Below, piece by piece: positions 16,900 through 28,980 of a stretch of 64,000 nucleotides of DNA (position 1 is its first letter; every line of letters starts with the position of its first letter). A model generated the notes under the pieces. That model ran no database searches. It was not told where the DNA came from and was given only the letters and a program-made list of their open reading frames with translations. Position numbers and translations under genes: made by a program. The DNA comes from Haloferax sulfurifontis ATCC BAA-897 (GTDB lineage Archaea > Halobacteriota > Halobacteria > Halobacteriales > Haloferacaceae), in the NCBI RefSeq assembly GCF_000337835.1, contig NZ_AOLM01000017.1:1-64000 (forward strand), read 5' to 3'.

Positions 16900-16958
16900 G
16901 ATTAATTGCGCTACTGTATCGTGCCACCAAAGGCCGTGAGACGCCCCACACCACCGAG

Positions 16959-16964
16959 TTTATC
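16959..16964 (+). promoter_or_regulatory. TATA box of acd
   Basis: TTTATC lies 26-31 nt before the ATG at 16990, consistent with a leaderless acd transcript. Confidence 0.6.
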
Positions 16965-16989
16965 AGTCAATGACGGGAATCAACAACCA

Positions 16990-19083
16990 ATGGGAGAGCT
17001 ATCCGAATTGTTCGCGCCGAACCGAATCGCGGTGGTCGGTGCGACCGAGCGCGAAGGAGCAATCGGGCGGGCAATCATGGACAACCTCATCGACGAGTTC
17101 GACGGTGAGGTCGTTCCGGTCAACCCCAAGTACGACGAACTGTTCGGCCTGCAGTGCTACGGCGACGTCGGCGAGACGAACGCCGACCTCGCGGTCATCG
17201 TCGTTCCCCCGAAGGTCGTCCTGCCGGCGATGAAGTCCGCCGGGGAGGCGGGTATCCAGAACGTGGTCGTCATCACCGCCGGCTTCGGTGAGACGGGCAG
17301 TGAGGGAGCCGCCCGCGAGCAGGAACTCCGCGACATCGCCGAGGAGTACGACCTCAACGTCGTCGGCCCGAACAGTCTGGGCATCATGAACACGGACGTG
17401 GGCATGAACGCGACGTTCGGCCCCGACATGGCCCTCGACGGCAACATGTCGTTCATGAGCCAGTCGGGCGCGTTCATCACGGCCGTCATCGACTGGGCCA
17501 ACGACGAGGACATCGGCTTCAAGGACATCGTCTCGTTGGGTAACAAGGCCGTCCTCGACGAGGCCGACTTCATCGAGACGTGGAACGACGACCCCGACAC
17601 CGAGGTCATCATCGGCTATCTCGAGGGCATCTCCGCGGGCCGCGAGTTCATCGACTCCGCCCGCGACGTGACGAAGGACACGCCCATCGTCCTCGTCAAG
17701 TCCGGCAAGACCGACGCCGGCGCGCAGGCCGCCTCCTCGCACACCGGCACCATCGCCGGCTCCGACGCCGCCTACGAGGCCGGCCTCGAACAGGCGGGCG
17801 TCATCCGCGCGGAGTCCGTCCAGCACCTGTTCGACACCGCCCGCGTGCTGGGCGACCAGCCGGTCCCCGAGAACAAGGACGTGGCCGTCATCACGAACGC
17901 CGGCGGCCCCGGCGTCATGACGACCGACGCCATCGGCGAGTCGGAGCTGAAGATGGCCGACTTCACCGACGAGACGCTCGAGGCCTTCTCCGAGTCGCTC
18001 CCCGCCGAGGGGAACATCTACAACCCGGTCGACATCGTCGGCGACGCCGACAACGCCCGGTTCAAGGAGGCCCTCGACGTGGCGCTCGCCGACGACAACG
18101 TCGGCATGGCGCTCGTGTTGACCTGTCCGACGGCCGTCCTCGACTACAACCAACTGGCCGCCGACACCGTCGAGCTACAGGAGAAACACGACAAGCCCAT
18201 CGCCGCCTGCTTCATGGGCGGCGAGCGCGTCGACGCCGCCTCCGACGTGATGAAAGACGCGGGCATCCCGAACTACTTCGACCCCTCGCGCGCCGTCGAC
18301 GGCCTCGAAGCCCTCTCGAAGTACGCCGACATCCGCCAGCGCGAGTACGACGCGCCCACCGAGTTCGACGTGGACCGCGAGCGCGCCCGCGAAATCCTCG
18401 AAACCGTCGAGGACCGCGACGACACCCGCCTCGGCGTCGAGGCGATGGAACTGCTCGACGCCTACGGCATCGAGACGCCGACCGGGGACATCGTCGACGA
18501 CCCCGCCGACGCGCTCGAAGTCGCCGAAAACATCGACGGCGACGTCGTGATGAAAATCGTCAGCCCGGACATCCTCCACAAGTCCGACATCGGCGGCGTC
18601 AAGGTCGGCGTCGGAAACGAGGACGTCTACGACGCCTACGAGGACCTCGTCACTCGCGCGAAGAACTACCAGCCCGACGCCAACATCCTCGGCGTGCAGG
18701 TCCAGGAGATGGTGAACCTCGACGACGGCGTCGAGACCATCGTCGGCATGAACCGCGACCCGCAGTTCGGCCCGCTCATGATGTTCGGTCTCGGCGGCAT
18801 CTTCGTGGAAATCCTCGAAGACACGACGTTCCGCGTCGCGCCCGTCTCCGAGGCGGAAGCAGAAGACATGACGAAGGAAATCGACGCCGCGCCGATGCTC
18901 CGCGGCGCCCGCGGTAACGACCCGGTCGACATCGGCGGCATCACGGAGACCATCCAGCGGCTCTCCCAGCTCGTCACCGACTTCCCGGCCATCCTCGAAC
19001 TCGACATCAACCCGCTCGTCGCCCTGCCGGACGGCGTGAAGGCCGTCGACGTTCGACTCACCGTCGACCCGGACGAACTTTAA
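16990..19083 (+). CDS. acd: Acetate-CoA ligase (ADP-forming), fused alpha-beta
   Basis: The protein has 697 aa, the length of the haloarchaeal single-chain enzyme. The N-terminal CoA-binding domain (RIAVVGATEREGAIGRAIMDNL) is followed by succinyl-CoA-ligase-like domains with the phosphorylated histidine near residue 251 (SSHTGTIAGSDAAYEAGL). The C-terminal ATP-grasp half has MKIVSPDILHKSDIGGVKVGV and GLGGIFVEIL. It converts acetyl-CoA, ADP and phosphate into acetate, CoA and ATP, giving substrate-level phosphorylation during sugar catabolism. The start at 16990 (MGELSELF) fits the TATA at 16959. Confidence 0.93.
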   Translation: MGELSELFAPNRIAVVGATEREGAIGRAIMDNLIDEFDGEVVPVNPKYDELFGLQCYGDVGETNADLAVIVVPPKVVLPAMKSAGEAGIQNVVVITAGFGETGSEGAAREQELRDIAEEYDLNVVGPNSLGIMNTDVGMNATFGPDMALDGNMSFMSQSGAFITAVIDWANDEDIGFKDIVSLGNKAVLDEADFIETWNDDPDTEVIIGYLEGISAGREFIDSARDVTKDTPIVLVKSGKTDAGAQAASSHTGTIAGSDAAYEAGLEQAGVIRAESVQHLFDTARVLGDQPVPENKDVAVITNAGGPGVMTTDAIGESELKMADFTDETLEAFSESLPAEGNIYNPVDIVGDADNARFKEALDVALADDNVGMALVLTCPTAVLDYNQLAADTVELQEKHDKPIAACFMGGERVDAASDVMKDAGIPNYFDPSRAVDGLEALSKYADIRQREYDAPTEFDVDRERAREILETVEDRDDTRLGVEAMELLDAYGIETPTGDIVDDPADALEVAENIDGDVVMKIVSPDILHKSDIGGVKVGVGNEDVYDAYEDLVTRAKNYQPDANILGVQVQEMVNLDDGVETIVGMNRDPQFGPLMMFGLGGIFVEILEDTTFRVAPVSEAEAEDMTKEIDAAPMLRGARGNDPVDIGGITETIQRLSQLVTDFPAILELDINPLVALPDGVKAVDVRLTVDPDEL

Positions 19084-19086
19084 ACA
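19078..19086 (+). promoter_or_regulatory. Possible TATA element between acd and the BioD/DRTGG gene
   Basis: ACTTTAAAC overlaps the acd stop codon and is centred about 27 nt before the ATG at 19110, so the second gene could have its own promoter as well as read-through from acd. Confidence 0.4.
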
Positions 19087-19109
19087 CTTCACCACCCTAT
19101 CACTCAACA

Positions 19110-20213
19110 ATGAACACGGTACTCGTCACCTCGACCGGAGAAAGCACCGGGAAGACCGCAATCACGCTCGCACTCGGCGTCCTCGCCAAGGAGCGCGGGC
19201 TGGACGTGGGCTACATGAAGCCCAAGGGCACCCGCCTGCAGTCCAGCACCGGCAAGACCCTCGACGAGGACCCGATGCTCGCCCGAGAACTGCTCGACAT
19301 CGACGCCGAGATGCACCAGCTCGAACCCGTCGTCTACTCCCCGACGTTCATCCAGGGAGCCGTCCGCGGCAAGGAGAACGCCGAGGAGCTCTCGGAGGTC
19401 ATCTCCCACCACTTCGAGGACATCTCGGCCGGCAAGGACCTGATGCTCGTCGAGGGCGGCGGCTCCTACCGCACCGGCGGCATCGTCGACCTCACCGACG
19501 GCGACGTGGCGAACCTCCTCGACGCCGAGGTCATCCTCGTCGCCGACTACCAGCACCCGAGCGACCTCGACGACGTGGTCGCGGCGGTCGAAGACATCGG
19601 CCCCGACCGCCTCGCCGGCGTCGTGTTCAACCGCGTGAGCGACGCCGTCTACGACGAACTCGAAACCGAGATCGCGCCGTTCCTCGAAGCCCGCGGCGTC
19701 CCCGTCCTCGGCGTCGTCCCGACCGAAAAGGACCTCGCGGGCGTCACCGTCGAGGAACTCGCGAACGAACTCGGCGCGGACTTCGCCACCGACGCGCCGA
19801 CCGACGCCTTCGTCGAGCGCTTCCTCGTCGGCGCGATGGGCGGCGACGCGGCGCTCCGCTACTTCCGCCGCACGAAGAACGCCGCGGTCATCACCGGCGG
19901 CGACCGCGCGAACATCCAGCGCGCCGCGCTCGAAGCCCCCGGCGTCAAGTGTATCATCCTCACCGGCGGCCACCGACCCGTCGGGGCCGTCATCGGCAAG
20001 GCCGAACAGAAGGGCGTCCCGGTGCTCCTCGTCAACGGCGACACGCTCTCTGTGACCGACCGCGCCGAGGACATCGTCAGCACGGGCCGCACCCGCGACG
20101 AGCGCACGGTCAACCGGATGCGCGACCTGCTGTACGAACACGCCGACATCGACGCCATCATCGGGGACATCGAACCGTCCGGTGACGACGCTGTCGACGG
20201 CGACGACGAGTAA
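19110..20213 (+). CDS. BioD-like P-loop protein with DRTGG domain
   Basis: The protein has 367 aa. An N-terminal P-loop (STGESTGKTAITL, residues 8-20) and the Walker-B-like LMLVEGGGSYRTGG (about 110) resemble dethiobiotin synthetase. The C-terminal third (from about residue 215) has the DRTGG-type fold with VITGGDRANIQ and IILTGGHRPVGAVI. The combination equals the N-terminal regulatory part of long bacterial phosphotransacetylases without their catalytic domain. It lies 26 nt downstream of acd, so a regulatory role in acetyl-CoA/acetate metabolism is a reasonable inference. Confidence 0.8.
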   Translation: MNTVLVTSTGESTGKTAITLALGVLAKERGLDVGYMKPKGTRLQSSTGKTLDEDPMLARELLDIDAEMHQLEPVVYSPTFIQGAVRGKENAEELSEVISHHFEDISAGKDLMLVEGGGSYRTGGIVDLTDGDVANLLDAEVILVADYQHPSDLDDVVAAVEDIGPDRLAGVVFNRVSDAVYDELETEIAPFLEARGVPVLGVVPTEKDLAGVTVEELANELGADFATDAPTDAFVERFLVGAMGGDAALRYFRRTKNAAVITGGDRANIQRAALEAPGVKCIILTGGHRPVGAVIGKAEQKGVPVLLVNGDTLSVTDRAEDIVSTGRTRDERTVNRMRDLLYEHADIDAIIGDIEPSGDDAVDGDDE

Positions 20214-24668: not shown

Positions 24669-25451
24669 CTACTGTAGTCGGCGCGTCGTCTCGACCAGCG
24701 GGTGTCGGGCGTAGTCGACGATGTCGATGTCCGAGATGGACTTCAGACCCTCCTTTTCTGCGGTCCGTTGCATCCCGAGTTCGACGGGGTCGTCGACGAC
24801 GATGACGTAGGCGTCCATCTCCTCGATGCCGATGCGGTCGGCCGCGAGGACGCGGTGGTGTCCGTCCGCGAGGAGCAACGTCCCGTTGTTGTCGATGACG
24901 ACGAGCGGCTCCGCGAGACCGCGTTCGAGTTCGTACCGGCGGCCGTCGAGTTCGTCGGCGTAGACGCGCGCCTGCGTGGGTATGAGGTTCGAAAGCGCGA
25001 CGGTCCGGCGCTCCTGGTGGACCGTGATGCCGTGAATCTGTTCGAGCGTCCGCATGAGTTTGCCCACCTTCTCGGGCGTCGCGCGCTCGATTTGGCTTCG
25101 GATGACGTCGGTGTTCGAGATGATGCCGACGAGGTTGCCCGCGTCGTCGACGACCGGGAGCTTCTGGATGCCCGACCGGAGGATGACGCGGGCGGCGTCG
25201 TTGACGTCCATCTCGGGGTGGGCGACGACGAGGTCCGTCGCCATCACCGTCTCGATACTCGCGTCGTCGTCCGACAGGAGGATATCTCGGGCCGTGACGA
25301 ATCCCTCGGCCTTGCGGCCGTCACAGACGGGAAATCCGTTGTGGCCGTCGCTTTCCGCGATGCGTTGGGCGACGTCCGCGACCGTGTCGGTCGGAGAGAC
25401 GGTCTGGACCTCGCGCGTCATGTACTCCTTGACGGTCGCTTTAGTACTCAT
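24669..25451 (-). CDS. CBS-pair protein with ParB-like domain
   Basis: The protein has 260 aa. Two CBS motifs occupy residues 1-130 (VKEYMTREVQTVSPTDTVADV and VMATDLVVAHPEMDVNDAARV). A ParB/Srx-like nuclease fold follows at about 150-235 with the GHHR-type motif LLADGHHRVLAADR. Archaeal proteins of this type have been linked to serine kinase (SerK-like) or sulfiredoxin-like activities, but most are unassigned; the CBS pair suggests adenine-nucleotide sensing. The ATG at 25451 (MSTKATVKEYMT) is chosen because the upstream codons are not family-like. It lies 43 nt after an RCK-DHH gene on the same strand. Confidence 0.8.
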   Translation of the reverse strand: MSTKATVKEYMTREVQTVSPTDTVADVAQRIAESDGHNGFPVCDGRKAEGFVTARDILLSDDDASIETVMATDLVVAHPEMDVNDAARVILRSGIQKLPVVDDAGNLVGIISNTDVIRSQIERATPEKVGKLMRTLEQIHGITVHQERRTVALSNLIPTQARVYADELDGRRYELERGLAEPLVVIDNNGTLLLADGHHRVLAADRIGIEEMDAYVIVVDDPVELGMQRTAEKEGLKSISDIDIVDYARHPLVETTRRLQ

Positions 25452-25494
25452 CTCCCACCTGATAGGGCCACCGTCGGCAAAAACGTGTGGGCGC

Positions 25495-26952
25495 TTACTC
25501 ATCGATCGGGTACTCGAAGGCGACGTCGGTATCCAGACTCGGCGTCGGCGTCGCGTGCTCCAGCGTCTCGAACATCCGCCCGGCGACGATGTCCGTGACG
25601 ATAGTCGCGAGCGACTCCCGAGAGTCGTCGCCCACGTCGTCGAGAATGCCTAACGGAATCTGTGCGCCCGCCATGTCGGCGTGGCCGCCGGCGCTCCCGA
25701 TGGTGCCGAGGGCGTCTCGAAACGCCTCGCCGAGGTCGACCCGCGCTCCGCGGGCGCGACCGGAGACGTAGACCGTCCCGTCCATCAGGCCGTAGACGAC
25801 CGTCACCTCGACGCCCTCCATCCCGAGGAGGTGGTCGGCGGCCTGCGCGAGGGCGTCCCGCTCGCGGATGTCGCCGACGTTCGTCGTGAGAACGTTGCCC
25901 CGAACGTCGCGGTTCGAGATGGCGCGGGCGAGCGTCTCCATCGTCTCCGAGGTCAGACTCGGCGTCTCGACCCGTTCGAGCAGGGCCATGTCGACGTGGG
26001 GGATGAGGAAGGCGGCGGCCTCGAAGTCGGCCGTCGAGACCTCCCGCGTGAAGTCGTTGGTGTCGACCTGGATACCGAACAACAGCGCCGTCGCGACCGT
26101 CGTGTCGGGGACGATGCCGAGCCGGTCGAGGTACTCCGCGAGGAGCGTGCTCGTCGCGCCGACGCCGCGTCTGAGGTCCACGTACGCCGCCTCGACCGGC
26201 GCGCGCGGCGGGTGGTGGTCGATGACGATGTCGATTGTCGTCTCCGGCGGGAGGCGGTCGTTGACGCCCGGCCGGGAGTGGTCGACGAGCGCGAAGCCGG
26301 CGTACTCGTCGTCCGAGGGCACCTCGTCGAGGACGCGGAGGTCCAACTCGAGGAGGTTGACGAGCGCGCGGTTCTCCTGGTGAGAGATGTCGCCGAAGTA
26401 ACACGCGTCGGCCTCGACGCCCGCGCGTTCGGCGATGGCTTGTAGCGCCAGCGCCGCGGCGATGGCGTCGGGGTCCGGGTTGTCGTGCATCACGACCGCG
26501 AGTCTGCCGTCGACGTTCCGGAGCACCCGCATCAGGCGGTTCAACCGCTCCGTGTGCGACGTGCCGACGGCGTCGAGGATGCGGTCTGTGACCACTTCCT
26601 GCGGGTCGATGACCTCGTCGGCGAGGGCGTAAACCTCGTCGCGGACCGACGGCTCGGCGTCGTCGCCGAGGTAGACGACAAGCGGCGCGTCCGGGCAGTG
26701 TTCGCTGGCCGCGCGCGCCGCGTCGAGGTTCAACCGTGGAGACTGTCCGCCGACGATGACGAGGTCGACCGCGTCGGGATAGGTCGACGGGTCGGCGGGG
26801 TCGCCCTCTCTCGCGTCGATGCCGTCCGAGCGGAGGTCCTCGGCGCGCCCCTTCCGGTCGGTGACGACCGTCACCGTCCCGCCGCGGCCGGCGAGTTGCT
26901 CGACGAGGTCCCCACCGAGTGACCCACAGCCGAGAACCAGGCGACGTACCAT
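25495..26952 (-). CDS. RCK (TrkA-N) / DHH-DHHA1 phosphoesterase
   Basis: The protein has 485 aa. A Rossmann RCK_N domain (VLGCGSLGGDLVEQL, residues 5-19) spans about 1-120. A DHH phosphoesterase domain follows with HDNPDPDAIAAALAL (about 155), the VDHSRPG motif, and IDHHPPRAP (about 250), and then a DHHA1 domain with GGHADMAGAQIP near 445. The DHH family includes cyclic di-AMP phosphodiesterases, nanoRNases and inorganic pyrophosphatases, and the RCK domain is a nucleotide or NAD-binding K+-transport regulator; this fusion is typical of archaea. Cyclic dinucleotide hydrolysis is plausible but not proven by sequence. Confidence 0.82.
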   Translation of the reverse strand: MVRRLVLGCGSLGGDLVEQLAGRGGTVTVVTDRKGRAEDLRSDGIDAREGDPADPSTYPDAVDLVIVGGQSPRLNLDAARAASEHCPDAPLVVYLGDDAEPSVRDEVYALADEVIDPQEVVTDRILDAVGTSHTERLNRLMRVLRNVDGRLAVVMHDNPDPDAIAAALALQAIAERAGVEADACYFGDISHQENRALVNLLELDLRVLDEVPSDDEYAGFALVDHSRPGVNDRLPPETTIDIVIDHHPPRAPVEAAYVDLRRGVGATSTLLAEYLDRLGIVPDTTVATALLFGIQVDTNDFTREVSTADFEAAAFLIPHVDMALLERVETPSLTSETMETLARAISNRDVRGNVLTTNVGDIRERDALAQAADHLLGMEGVEVTVVYGLMDGTVYVSGRARGARVDLGEAFRDALGTIGSAGGHADMAGAQIPLGILDDVGDDSRESLATIVTDIVAGRMFETLEHATPTPSLDTDVAFEYPIDE

Positions 26953-27041
26953 ACAGGAACGGTCGAACTCCGGCCGCAAAACCCTACCGTCCTCCAATCC
27001 GGCGATGATATTATGTCATGGCATACCATGTCACATATACG

Positions 27042-27422
27042 ATGGAACTCGAGACGCAACTGCTCCCCGAATCGCGAGCCGAGTCGTTCGTCCGAACCTG
27101 TCGAACCGTCGTCGGCGATGACCTCAGGAGCGTGACGTACTTCACCCACGACCGCTGTGAGCAGATGTACCTCCGGAGCGACCTCGAAGCCGACGCCGAC
27201 CTCACCGGGTTCGTCGAACACGAGACCGACGGGTTTCAGGCGCGGACCGCCTACCGCGGCTCCGAGCTCGGCGACTACCGCTACACCGTCCGCGCCTTCG
27301 ACCACGGCTACCTGACGCGGGTGACCGCCGACGACAGAGGCGTGTTCGTCACGACCGACGGCCTGACGCTCCGCCGCTCCGAGGAGTTGGCGTCGGCGCT
27401 CGGCGAGCTACTGCGCGAGTAA
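27042..27422 (+). CDS. Conserved haloarchaeal protein
   Basis: The protein has 126 aa and is soluble. It has cysteines in SFVRTCRTVVGDDLRSVTYF and HDRCEQMYLR and a C-terminal strand-turn (DDRGVFVTTDGLTLRR). I do not recognise a function; it resembles a small uncharacterised haloarchaeal family. The ATG at 27042 is favoured over 27018 because a TATA-like GATATTATG at 27006-27014 lies about 27-33 nt upstream, in a locally AT-rich spot. It converges with nuoN. Confidence 0.6.
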   Translation: MELETQLLPESRAESFVRTCRTVVGDDLRSVTYFTHDRCEQMYLRSDLEADADLTGFVEHETDGFQARTAYRGSELGDYRYTVRAFDHGYLTRVTADDRGVFVTTDGLTLRRSEELASALGELLRE

Positions 27423-27459: not shown

Positions 27460-28980
27460 TCAGAAGAGCGCCGCGGCGACGGTCTGGGCCGTCTCGATGA
27501 CGGGCTGAGAGCCGGGCAGGAGCAGGACCGTCCCGACCGCGGCGAAGACGATTGCCACGTACAGCCCGACCGGCTGACTGCCGATTTCGAGGTCCGCCGA
27601 CGGCTCTTCTATCCACATCGCTTTCACGACGCGGCTGTAGTAGAACAGCGACAGCGCGCTGTTGACCGCGCCGACCGCGGCGAGCCACCAGAAGCCGGAT
27701 TCGATGGCCGAGAAGAACAGCGCGTACTTCGAGAAGAAGCCGCCGAACGGCGGCAGGCCCGCGAGCGAGAACATGAAGACGGTCATCGCCGCCGCGGCGA
27801 TGGGTGCCTTCGAGGCGATGCCGTTGTAGTCCTCGAACGTGCGGCCGAGGCCCCACTTTTCGACCATGGCGATGAACAGGAACGCGCCCGTGTTCATGAA
27901 GCCGTAGACGAACAGGTGCGCCATGCTCGCGCCGAGCACGTCGCCGTTCGCGGCACCGCCGTCGACGGTGATGGCCGCGAGACCGATGAGCGCGTAGCCG
28001 GCGTGTCCGATAGAGGAGTACGCCAGCATGCGCTTTACGTTCTGTTGGGTCGCCGCCGCGAAGTTACCGAGCGTCATCGTGACGACGGCGAGCAACGCGA
28101 ACAACAGCGACCAGTCGACGCTCCCGCCGCCGATCGACGTGACGGTTCCGAGGGGGAACGCGACCGTGAAGACGCGGAAGGCGACGACGAAGCCGGCCGC
28201 CTTCGACGCCGACGAGAGGAACGCGCTCACCGGAGCGGGCGCGCCCTCGTAGGCCTCCGGCGCCCAGAAGTGGAACGGGACGGAGGCGGTCTTGAACGCG
28301 AAGCCGCCGGCGATCATCAGCACGCCGAGGCCGAGGACGCCGACGAGTTCGGTGCCCTCCGCGAGCGACGCGGCGATTTCCGGGAGCACCAGCGAGCCGG
28401 TGACGGCGAACACGAGGCTGATACCGAACGCGAACACCGCCGACGACAGCGCGCCGATGAGGAAGTACTTCAGACCCGCCTCGATGCTCCCGCGGTCCTC
28501 CTTGAGGAACGCGACGAGCGCGTACGAGGGCAGGGACGCCAGTTCGAGGCTGACGAAGACGGTCGCCAGCGAGTTCGACATCCCCATGAGCGTCATGCCG
28601 GTCGCGGCGAACAGCACGAGGGCGTAGAACTCGCCTTGGTAGCGCTGGTCCGCGAGGTAGTCGTACGAGGCGACCGAGACCATCGCGGCGACGCTGGTGA
28701 AGATGAGCGTGAAGAACAGGCTCATCCCGTCGACGACGAGCGCGTCGCCGTACAGCGATATCGCGCCGCCGGTGGACTCCATGCCGGTTCCGCCGATGAG
28801 GAACCAGCCGGCGATGCCGCCCGCGGCGAGCGCGCCGAGCGTCGCCGTGCCGGCCAGGAGGCCGTTGTTCGTGGAGTCCGGGTCGATGGTGTCGATGAGT
28901 AGCAGTGCGAGCCCCGTCAGTGCGAGCACGATGGCGGGAGCCGTCGCCGCCCACTCGGGGAGCGCCTGGAGGGGCGTCAT
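27460..28980 (-). CDS. nuoN: NADH-quinone oxidoreductase-like subunit N
   Basis: The protein has 506 aa with about fourteen membrane helices. It has the proton-pumping antiporter-like fold: LVALLALFV-type helices, a conserved lysine in VKRMLAYSSIGHAGY near residue 314, and the second in NVKRMLAYSS; the broken helices are recognisable. NuoN is one of three antiporter-like pump modules of the complex. It is the last gene of the operon, and its ATG (28980) is immediately next to the nuoM stop. Confidence 0.93.
   Translation of the reverse strand: MTPLQALPEWAATAPAIVLALTGLALLLIDTIDPDSTNNGLLAGTATLGALAAGGIAGWFLIGGTGMESTGGAISLYGDALVVDGMSLFFTLIFTSVAAMVSVASYDYLADQRYQGEFYALVLFAATGMTLMGMSNSLATVFVSLELASLPSYALVAFLKEDRGSIEAGLKYFLIGALSSAVFAFGISLVFAVTGSLVLPEIAASLAEGTELVGVLGLGVLMIAGGFAFKTASVPFHFWAPEAYEGAPAPVSAFLSSASKAAGFVVAFRVFTVAFPLGTVTSIGGGSVDWSLLFALLAVVTMTLGNFAAATQQNVKRMLAYSSIGHAGYALIGLAAITVDGGAANGDVLGASMAHLFVYGFMNTGAFLFIAMVEKWGLGRTFEDYNGIASKAPIAAAAMTVFMFSLAGLPPFGGFFSKYALFFSAIESGFWWLAAVGAVNSALSLFYYSRVVKAMWIEEPSADLEIGSQPVGLYVAIVFAAVGTVLLLPGSQPVIETAQTVAAALF

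Follow-up and report, generated by a model that had tools for sequence, protein, structure and literature searches.

Residue patterns suggest that haloarchaea may divide a c-di-AMP phosphodiesterase into catalytic and sensor RCK-DHH-DHHA1 copies

What does a protein that joins an RCK domain to a DHH-DHHA1 core do in a haloarchaeon, and does it act together with the CBS-ParB protein encoded beside it? We addressed these questions in Haloferax sulfurifontis ATCC BAA-897, in a stretch of 64,000 nucleotides (contig NZ_AOLM01000017.1, positions 1 to 64,000; hereafter the window) for which an initial annotation had described such a fusion and its neighbour. Counting genes from nuoB (HVO_0979), on the presumed order of the small nuo genes, the fusion gene is the orthologue of Haloferax volcanii HVO_0990, whose phosphodiesterase prediction was reportedly first made in an earlier paper. 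PMC8305020 lists HVO_0990, HVO_0756 and HVO_1690 of that species as predicted c-di-AMP phosphodiesterases. c-di-AMP is reported to be essential in H. volcanii, and papers of 2021 described its degrading enzyme as unknown (PMC8646023, PMC8305020). The fusion gene, hereafter A-type, lies among the following features of the window:

24669..25451, minus strand: CBS pair plus ParB/Srx-fold protein, 260 aa (Pfam, profile search, conservation)
25452..25494, minus strand: intergenic gap of 43 nt between the RCK-DHH and CBS-ParB genes
25495..26952, minus strand: RCK_N (TrkA_N)-DHH-DHHA1 protein, A-type, HVO_0990-like, 485 aa (ORF/translation, Pfam, relatives)
25648..25896, minus strand: DHHA1 domain, residues 353-435 (Pfam, residue comparison)
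26071..26499, minus strand: DHH domain, residues 152-294 (Pfam, residue comparison)
26608..26940, minus strand: RCK_N domain of Rossmann type, residues 5-115, nucleotide site altered (Pfam, residue comparison)
27018..27422, plus strand: DUF7522 gene between nuoN and the RCK-DHH gene (PF24366, E 1.3e-54)
27460..28980, minus strand: presumably nuoN, which closes the nuo cluster (named from its sequence)

Open reading frames and Pfam matches confirmed the coordinates and domain reading of the initial annotation, an RCK-DHH-DHHA1 fusion next to a CBS-ParB protein, and the two genes do share a strand with 43 nt between them. The A-type frame (26952..25495, minus strand) begins with ATG and encodes a 485-aa product in which TrkA_N (residues 5-115, E 3.1e-8), DHH (152-294, E 4.2e-10) and DHHA1 (353-435, E 1.4e-12) all pass the curated Pfam cut-offs. 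Its DHH residues H156, D160, D162, D224 and D245-H246-H247 are intact, as are D297 just past that domain and R399 and G422-G423-H424 in DHHA1. The RCK_N domain retains G8xG10xxG13 and has T31 where an Asp is normally found, so that the canonical nucleotide site has its glycines and misses its acid. Ktr/Trk proteins bind c-di-AMP through RCK_C, and RCK_C/TrkA_C is absent from the window protein (Pfam, E <= 1), on which ground an RCK (TrkA/Ktr) K+ channel regulator was rejected as its identity. Both the RCK-DHH-DHHA1 architecture and the CBS-ParB fusion are already in print, and neither half is new. The published arCOG01566 comprises DHH-DHHA1 proteins, some of them fused to a Rossmann NAD-binding domain as in the window protein, and calls them uncharacterised and of unknown pathway; the accessible part of that source gives no tie to c-di-AMP, no catalytic/sensor split and no neighbour genes (PMC3307487).

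The DHH-DHHA1 half most resembles GdpP. A profile of 36 rows (profile A1), searched against solved structures, placed GdpP at the top, with a match that spans all of DHH-DHHA1 (E 3.6e-21), followed by Mn-pyrophosphatase (E 4.2e-16) and, much more weakly, NrnA (E 6.2e-6). The AlphaFold model of the A-type protein (mean pLDDT 86, pTM 0.54), whose N-terminal part shows a Rossmann-like alternation of strands and helices, had GdpP, TmPDE, Borrelia DhhP and S. aureus Pde2 as its top Foldseek matches (E 2.5e-19 to 2.5e-18); the scores of these four are nearly tied, and that of NrnA is close to them, so the substrate cannot be named from fold alone. The A-type protein shares DHH-DHHA1 with GdpP, with DHH motifs I-IV and the DHHA1 GGH all aligned, but has RCK_N in place of the membrane helices, PAS and degenerate GGDEF of GdpP (Pfam). 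A family II (Mn) pyrophosphatase, including the CBS-DRTGG type, was rejected because the A-type protein has DHHA1 (E 1.4e-12) and not DHHA2, and NCBIfam pyrophosphatase matches fall far under their cut-off (48.6 vs 283 bits).

We assessed the association between this family and the diadenylate cyclase using 196 phylum genomes (33 from class Halobacteria and 163 from outside it), calling RCK-DHH with profile A1 at E <= 1e-15 and the cyclase by its DAC domain (PF02457). RCK-DHH was found in 177/196 genomes and DAC in 176/196, with both in 171, neither in 14, RCK-DHH alone in 6 and DAC alone in 5 (Fisher p 4e-13, which is overstated because the genomes are related and not independent). Joint absence is spread over at least three lineages: RCK-DHH and DAC are missing together from eight genomes of family f26, from four of genus g70, where two sister genomes keep the pair, and from single genomes of f15 and f17, the latter incomplete; G257 is among these double absences. 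Of the five genomes with DAC alone, G150 and G190 reach a completeness of 90% or more, and DAC was found in all 33 class genomes sampled. The co-occurrence is new support for a c-di-AMP role, and it links the RCK-DHH family, not the A-type specifically, to c-di-AMP, with 11/196 mismatches.

An unexpected pattern emerged from comparison with a second copy. Relatives of the window protein were placed in 80 named loci, of which L042 of H. denitrificans is close to the window (100% identity in the best segment, less in other genes of the locus). RCK-DHH-type matches occur in 145/145 Halobacteria genomes with at least two in each; outside the class one match was found in 134/163 genomes, two in 10 and none in 19. 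We compared 89 A-type, 38 B-type (HVO_1690-like) and 49 N-type sequences, the last from outside the class, at the RCK site (G8, G10 and G13 of GxGxxG, together with an acid at position 31, where strand 2 ends) and at ten catalytic positions (H156, D160, D162, D224, D245, H246, H247, D297, G423 and H424). The two patterns are reciprocal: the RCK site is complete in 2/89 A-type, 38/38 B-type and 44/47 N-type sequences (those with an aligned N-terminus), and all ten catalytic residues are present in 89/89 A-type, 0/38 B-type and 34/49 N-type sequences. Allowing Glu at 297 and omitting the two DHHA1 residues raised the N-type count to 48/49 and left the B-type at 0/38, and H156 and H247 occur together in 89/89, 0/38 and 49/49 A-, B- and N-type sequences, respectively. 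B-type H247 is replaced in 35/38 sequences by Tyr, Leu, Phe, Asn, Cys or another residue, and the three that retain it carry Gln at 156 (H156 is lost in 8/38 overall); D297E is found in 38/38 B-type sequences, yet also in 14/49 N-type. Seven genomes sampled for both copies show the A/B pattern side by side, with the exception of G142, whose A-type has a complete RCK site.

The A-type RCK domain may still bind a nucleotide, since Asp or Glu stands at position 32, one past the usual site, in 60/89 sequences and GxGxxG is retained in 55/89. Low RCK identity was dropped as a sign of decay, because the N-type RCK domain is also less conserved than its DHH domain (mean identity 40% vs 57%), nearly the same as in the A-type (43% vs 68%). 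In trees, A-type and B-type each formed one group, both with whole proteins (98/99 and 100/100) and with DHH-DHHA1 alone (100/100 and 100/100). On the idea of a recent A/B duplication the trees speak both ways: the B-type grouped with the N-type and not with the A-type (88/67, not starred), and a single A+B clade was not rejected (p-AU 0.443). The initial annotation had linked both the RCK domain and the DHH core to potassium and c-di-AMP biology in other organisms, and the c-di-AMP link is supported for the DHH-DHHA1 half, which is nearest GdpP, and for the family, which tracks the cyclase domain; it is not supported for the RCK half, which is RCK_N only and has an eroded nucleotide site in A-type orthologues.

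From the architecture, residue patterns, cyclase co-occurrence and neighbourhoods, all computed directly, we favour a reading, with a probability of roughly 0.55, in which haloarchaea have split one RCK-regulated c-di-AMP phosphodiesterase into a catalytic A-type copy, the one in the window, and a sensor B-type copy. Both copies would descend from one ancestral DHH-DHHA1 phosphodiesterase that served this pathway under RCK control. The H. volcanii A- and B-type proteins appear side by side among those raised after hypochlorite (PMC10294847), which we count in favour of this reading. We infer that c-di-AMP is the substrate of the A-type, which would hydrolyse it probably to pApA and perhaps to AMP at a putative metal site of H156, D160, D162, D224, D245, H246, H247 and D297, with DHHA1 R399 and GGH predicted to hold the substrate; its RCK_N domain, without the usual dinucleotide site, would have lost nucleotide binding and probably serves assembly. 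The B-type lacks at least one catalytic histidine and has an intact RCK site, which argues that it is regulatory rather than catalytic; presumably inactive, it may be an NAD(H)- or adenine-nucleotide-responsive partner that acts on the A-type either by direct contact, as a mixed dimer, or by way of the substrate pool. We put forward only tentatively the more specific proposal that the nuo-linked A-type catalyses without sensing, that the B-type senses without catalysing, and that a mixed oligomer of the two ties c-di-AMP to NAD(H)/adenylate and possibly to division. HVO_0756, HVO_0990 and HVO_1690 were published as equal predictions, whereas the residue patterns keep the catalytic set in only two of the three and so choose among them, the window type being predicted active and the HVO_1690 type predicted inactive or regulatory. 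The split, if true, would be a natural case of sensor and catalytic site parted between gene copies and would account for a missing step in archaeal c-di-AMP signalling. A literature search, with subscription journals mostly outside its scope, found nothing on the A/B split or on the RCK-DHH/CBS-ParB neighbourhood.

The close Foldseek scores of GdpP, TmPDE, Pde2 and NrnA would also suit an A-type that is a housekeeping pApA/nanoRNA hydrolase or pAp phosphatase (NrnA/pApase-like) acting after the c-di-AMP phosphodiesterase, leaving c-di-AMP to the B-type or to a further paralogue, the C-type. DHH-DHHA1 enzymes have overlapping substrates, and the Pyrococcus pApase cuts neither c-di-AMP nor pApA according to the accessible part of its description (PMC8268124). 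The C-type, DHH-DHHA1 without RCK, has intact catalytic residues in Haloferax and relatives at E <= 1e-60 in 123/145 class genomes, and from its sequence it is a second catalytic candidate that could be the main phosphodiesterase. We nevertheless regard this alternative as doubtful: the profile favours GdpP over NrnA (3.6e-21 vs 6.2e-6), the RCK-DHH family is absent where the cyclase is absent, which a general pAp/nanoRNA enzyme does not predict, and 22/145 genomes have no C-type match at 1e-60, yet DAC is present in 33/33 sampled.

A B-type with a new substrate or chemistry, beside an A-type whose RCK domain had merely drifted, would dispense with any division of labour. The B-type is strongly conserved (mean identity 72% in DHH and 81% in DHHA1), hence under selection, and it retains D162, D224, D245, G423 and H424 in 38/38 sequences, both of which fit such a role. 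Against it, H247 is gone in 35/38 and H156 in the remaining three, mutation of the equivalent residue, the third of the DHH motif, in the Pyrococcus pApase, a related archaeal DHH enzyme, brought 100% loss of activity (PMC8268124), and strict A/B reciprocity is not what it predicts, so that we hold it to be rather unlikely. That the A-type is a RecJ-type DNA repair nuclease seems very improbable, although HVO_0990 and HVO_1690 were grouped under DNA recombination/repair and raised after hypochlorite (PMC10294847): the four RecJ proteins of H. volcanii are other loci (0073, 1147, 1018 and 2889; PMC7776575), and RecJ-Cdc45 appeared only at rank 50 of the A-type fold search, below c-di-AMP/pApA enzymes and pyrophosphatases.

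The CBS-ParB gene directly downstream of the A-type gene is a conserved haloarchaeal neighbour whose product could bind an adenine nucleotide. Its CBS pair matches Pfam at E 7.8e-27, while ParBc_2 on the single protein stays under the Pfam cut-off (15.8 vs 23.6 bits); the signal is clearer across the family, where each of 18 C-terminal domains gives a weak ParBc_2 match (best 3.6e-5), and the CBS-ParB profile ranked ParB/Spo0J first among solved structures (E 0.0032 to 0.076). SerK, a kinase whose ParB-fold domain phosphorylates free serine with ADP, was not among the 10 matches listed at E <= 10. CBS Asp56 and Asp115, which we take to be ribose-binding residues, and the ParB P motif G197-H-H-R200 are invariant in 29/29 sequences. 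The structure model has a mean pLDDT of 78, with four of five models near 58, and its fold searches were filled by CBS pairs, so they barely probed the ParB part; the fold match of the CBS pair to DarB is generic. A ParB of ParABS was rejected as an identity, the neighbour having GHHR (GxxR) and no HTH or C-terminal domain match in Pfam. CBS-ParB is reported to be more common than any other ParB-fold fusion of archaea and to occur chiefly in Methanobacteriota and Haloarchaea, and the window neighbour is of the same kind; the accessible part of that report makes no tie to RCK-DHH or c-di-AMP (PMC12704722).

Whether the two proteins form one nucleotide-sensing pair governing K+ or osmolyte balance, as the initial annotation proposed, was judged from gene positions and distribution. 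Since both families are present in 145/145 Halobacteria genomes, we do not take the observation for chance. Among the 144 genomes with listed positions for both (G021 left out), best matches start at most 2.6 kb apart in 116 and at most 6.2 kb apart in five more; of the 80 named loci, 79 hold CBS-ParB, always on the RCK-DHH strand and with a median gap of 74 nt, the exception being L117, a Thermococcus. This arrangement, the invariant CBS aspartates and the ability of DarB CBS pairs to bind c-di-AMP speak for a pair. Against one, over 6.2 kb or a contig boundary separates the genes in 23/144 genomes, including all 15 g2 and all three g4 genomes, and the window protein misses RCK_C. Across the phylum, with full-length CBS-ParB defined by a best E <= 1e-70, a cut chosen for this analysis, the counts against RCK-DHH were 118/7/59/12 (outside the class, Fisher p 0.086). 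Many non-haloarchaeal genomes have RCK-DHH and DAC without full-length CBS-ParB, four g70 genomes carry CBS-ParB without RCK-DHH and without DAC, and outside the class those best matches to the two families that were compared by position are not neighbours. This weak link shows that CBS-ParB is not a steady partner. Genome co-occurrence, which had been suggested as a check, thus came out well for RCK-DHH, which tracks DAC, and poorly for CBS-ParB, which does not closely track RCK-DHH; with the two genes neighbours in haloarchaea only, the sensing pair has become improbable.

Two CBS-ParB-like units occur in a single frame in G259 (contig C8, 23645-25165) and G281 (contig C1, 3830-5353), giving proteins of 626 and 513 aa, as if by tandem duplication and fusion. 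The genome of the window (G000) encodes another CBS-ParB-like protein (contig C11, 96788-97552), with 48% identity to the window's own; its gene is some 11 kb away from the B-type gene.

The B-type gene (L178:8933-10390, on the same contig C11) is 5 bp away from a convergent PRC-barrel gene and lies about 23 kb from the cyclase gene; the B-type is thus on the cyclase contig here, and HVO_1690 is likewise near HVO_1660 by number. A PRC-barrel gene is found within 1.2 kb in 28/38 B-type loci and 10/49 N-type loci, and the one beside the B-type gene here is, by gene order, HVO_1691, which we take to be CdpB1. The regulator CdrS binds upstream of HVO_1691, a PRC-domain gene, and of dacZ (PMC8406309), and CdpB1 and CdpB2, both PRC-barrel proteins, have roles in division (PMC12186497). 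Such a link would couple c-di-AMP turnover to division via the B-type and not via the window gene. In G140 the C-type gene is in two pieces (contig C1, 1912532-1913649), perhaps broken or a sequencing error.

Upstream of the RCK-DHH gene, nuoN is on the same strand in 70/80 loci; the opposite-strand DUF7522 gene between the two makes co-transcription with nuo unlikely in Haloferax. DUF7522 occupies this spot in Haloferax and some near relatives and is absent there in most other haloarchaeal loci. Genes resembling an ADP-forming acyl-CoA synthetase and a P-loop/DRTGG protein (names given partly by eye) lie near the A-type gene at 16906-20213 of the window, and similar genes are close to the B-type gene in L189, L192 and L193. 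A gene for a MazG-like NTP pyrophosphohydrolase (named by eye) adjoins RCK-DHH in several genomes of family f14 (L157-L160, L166 and L169).
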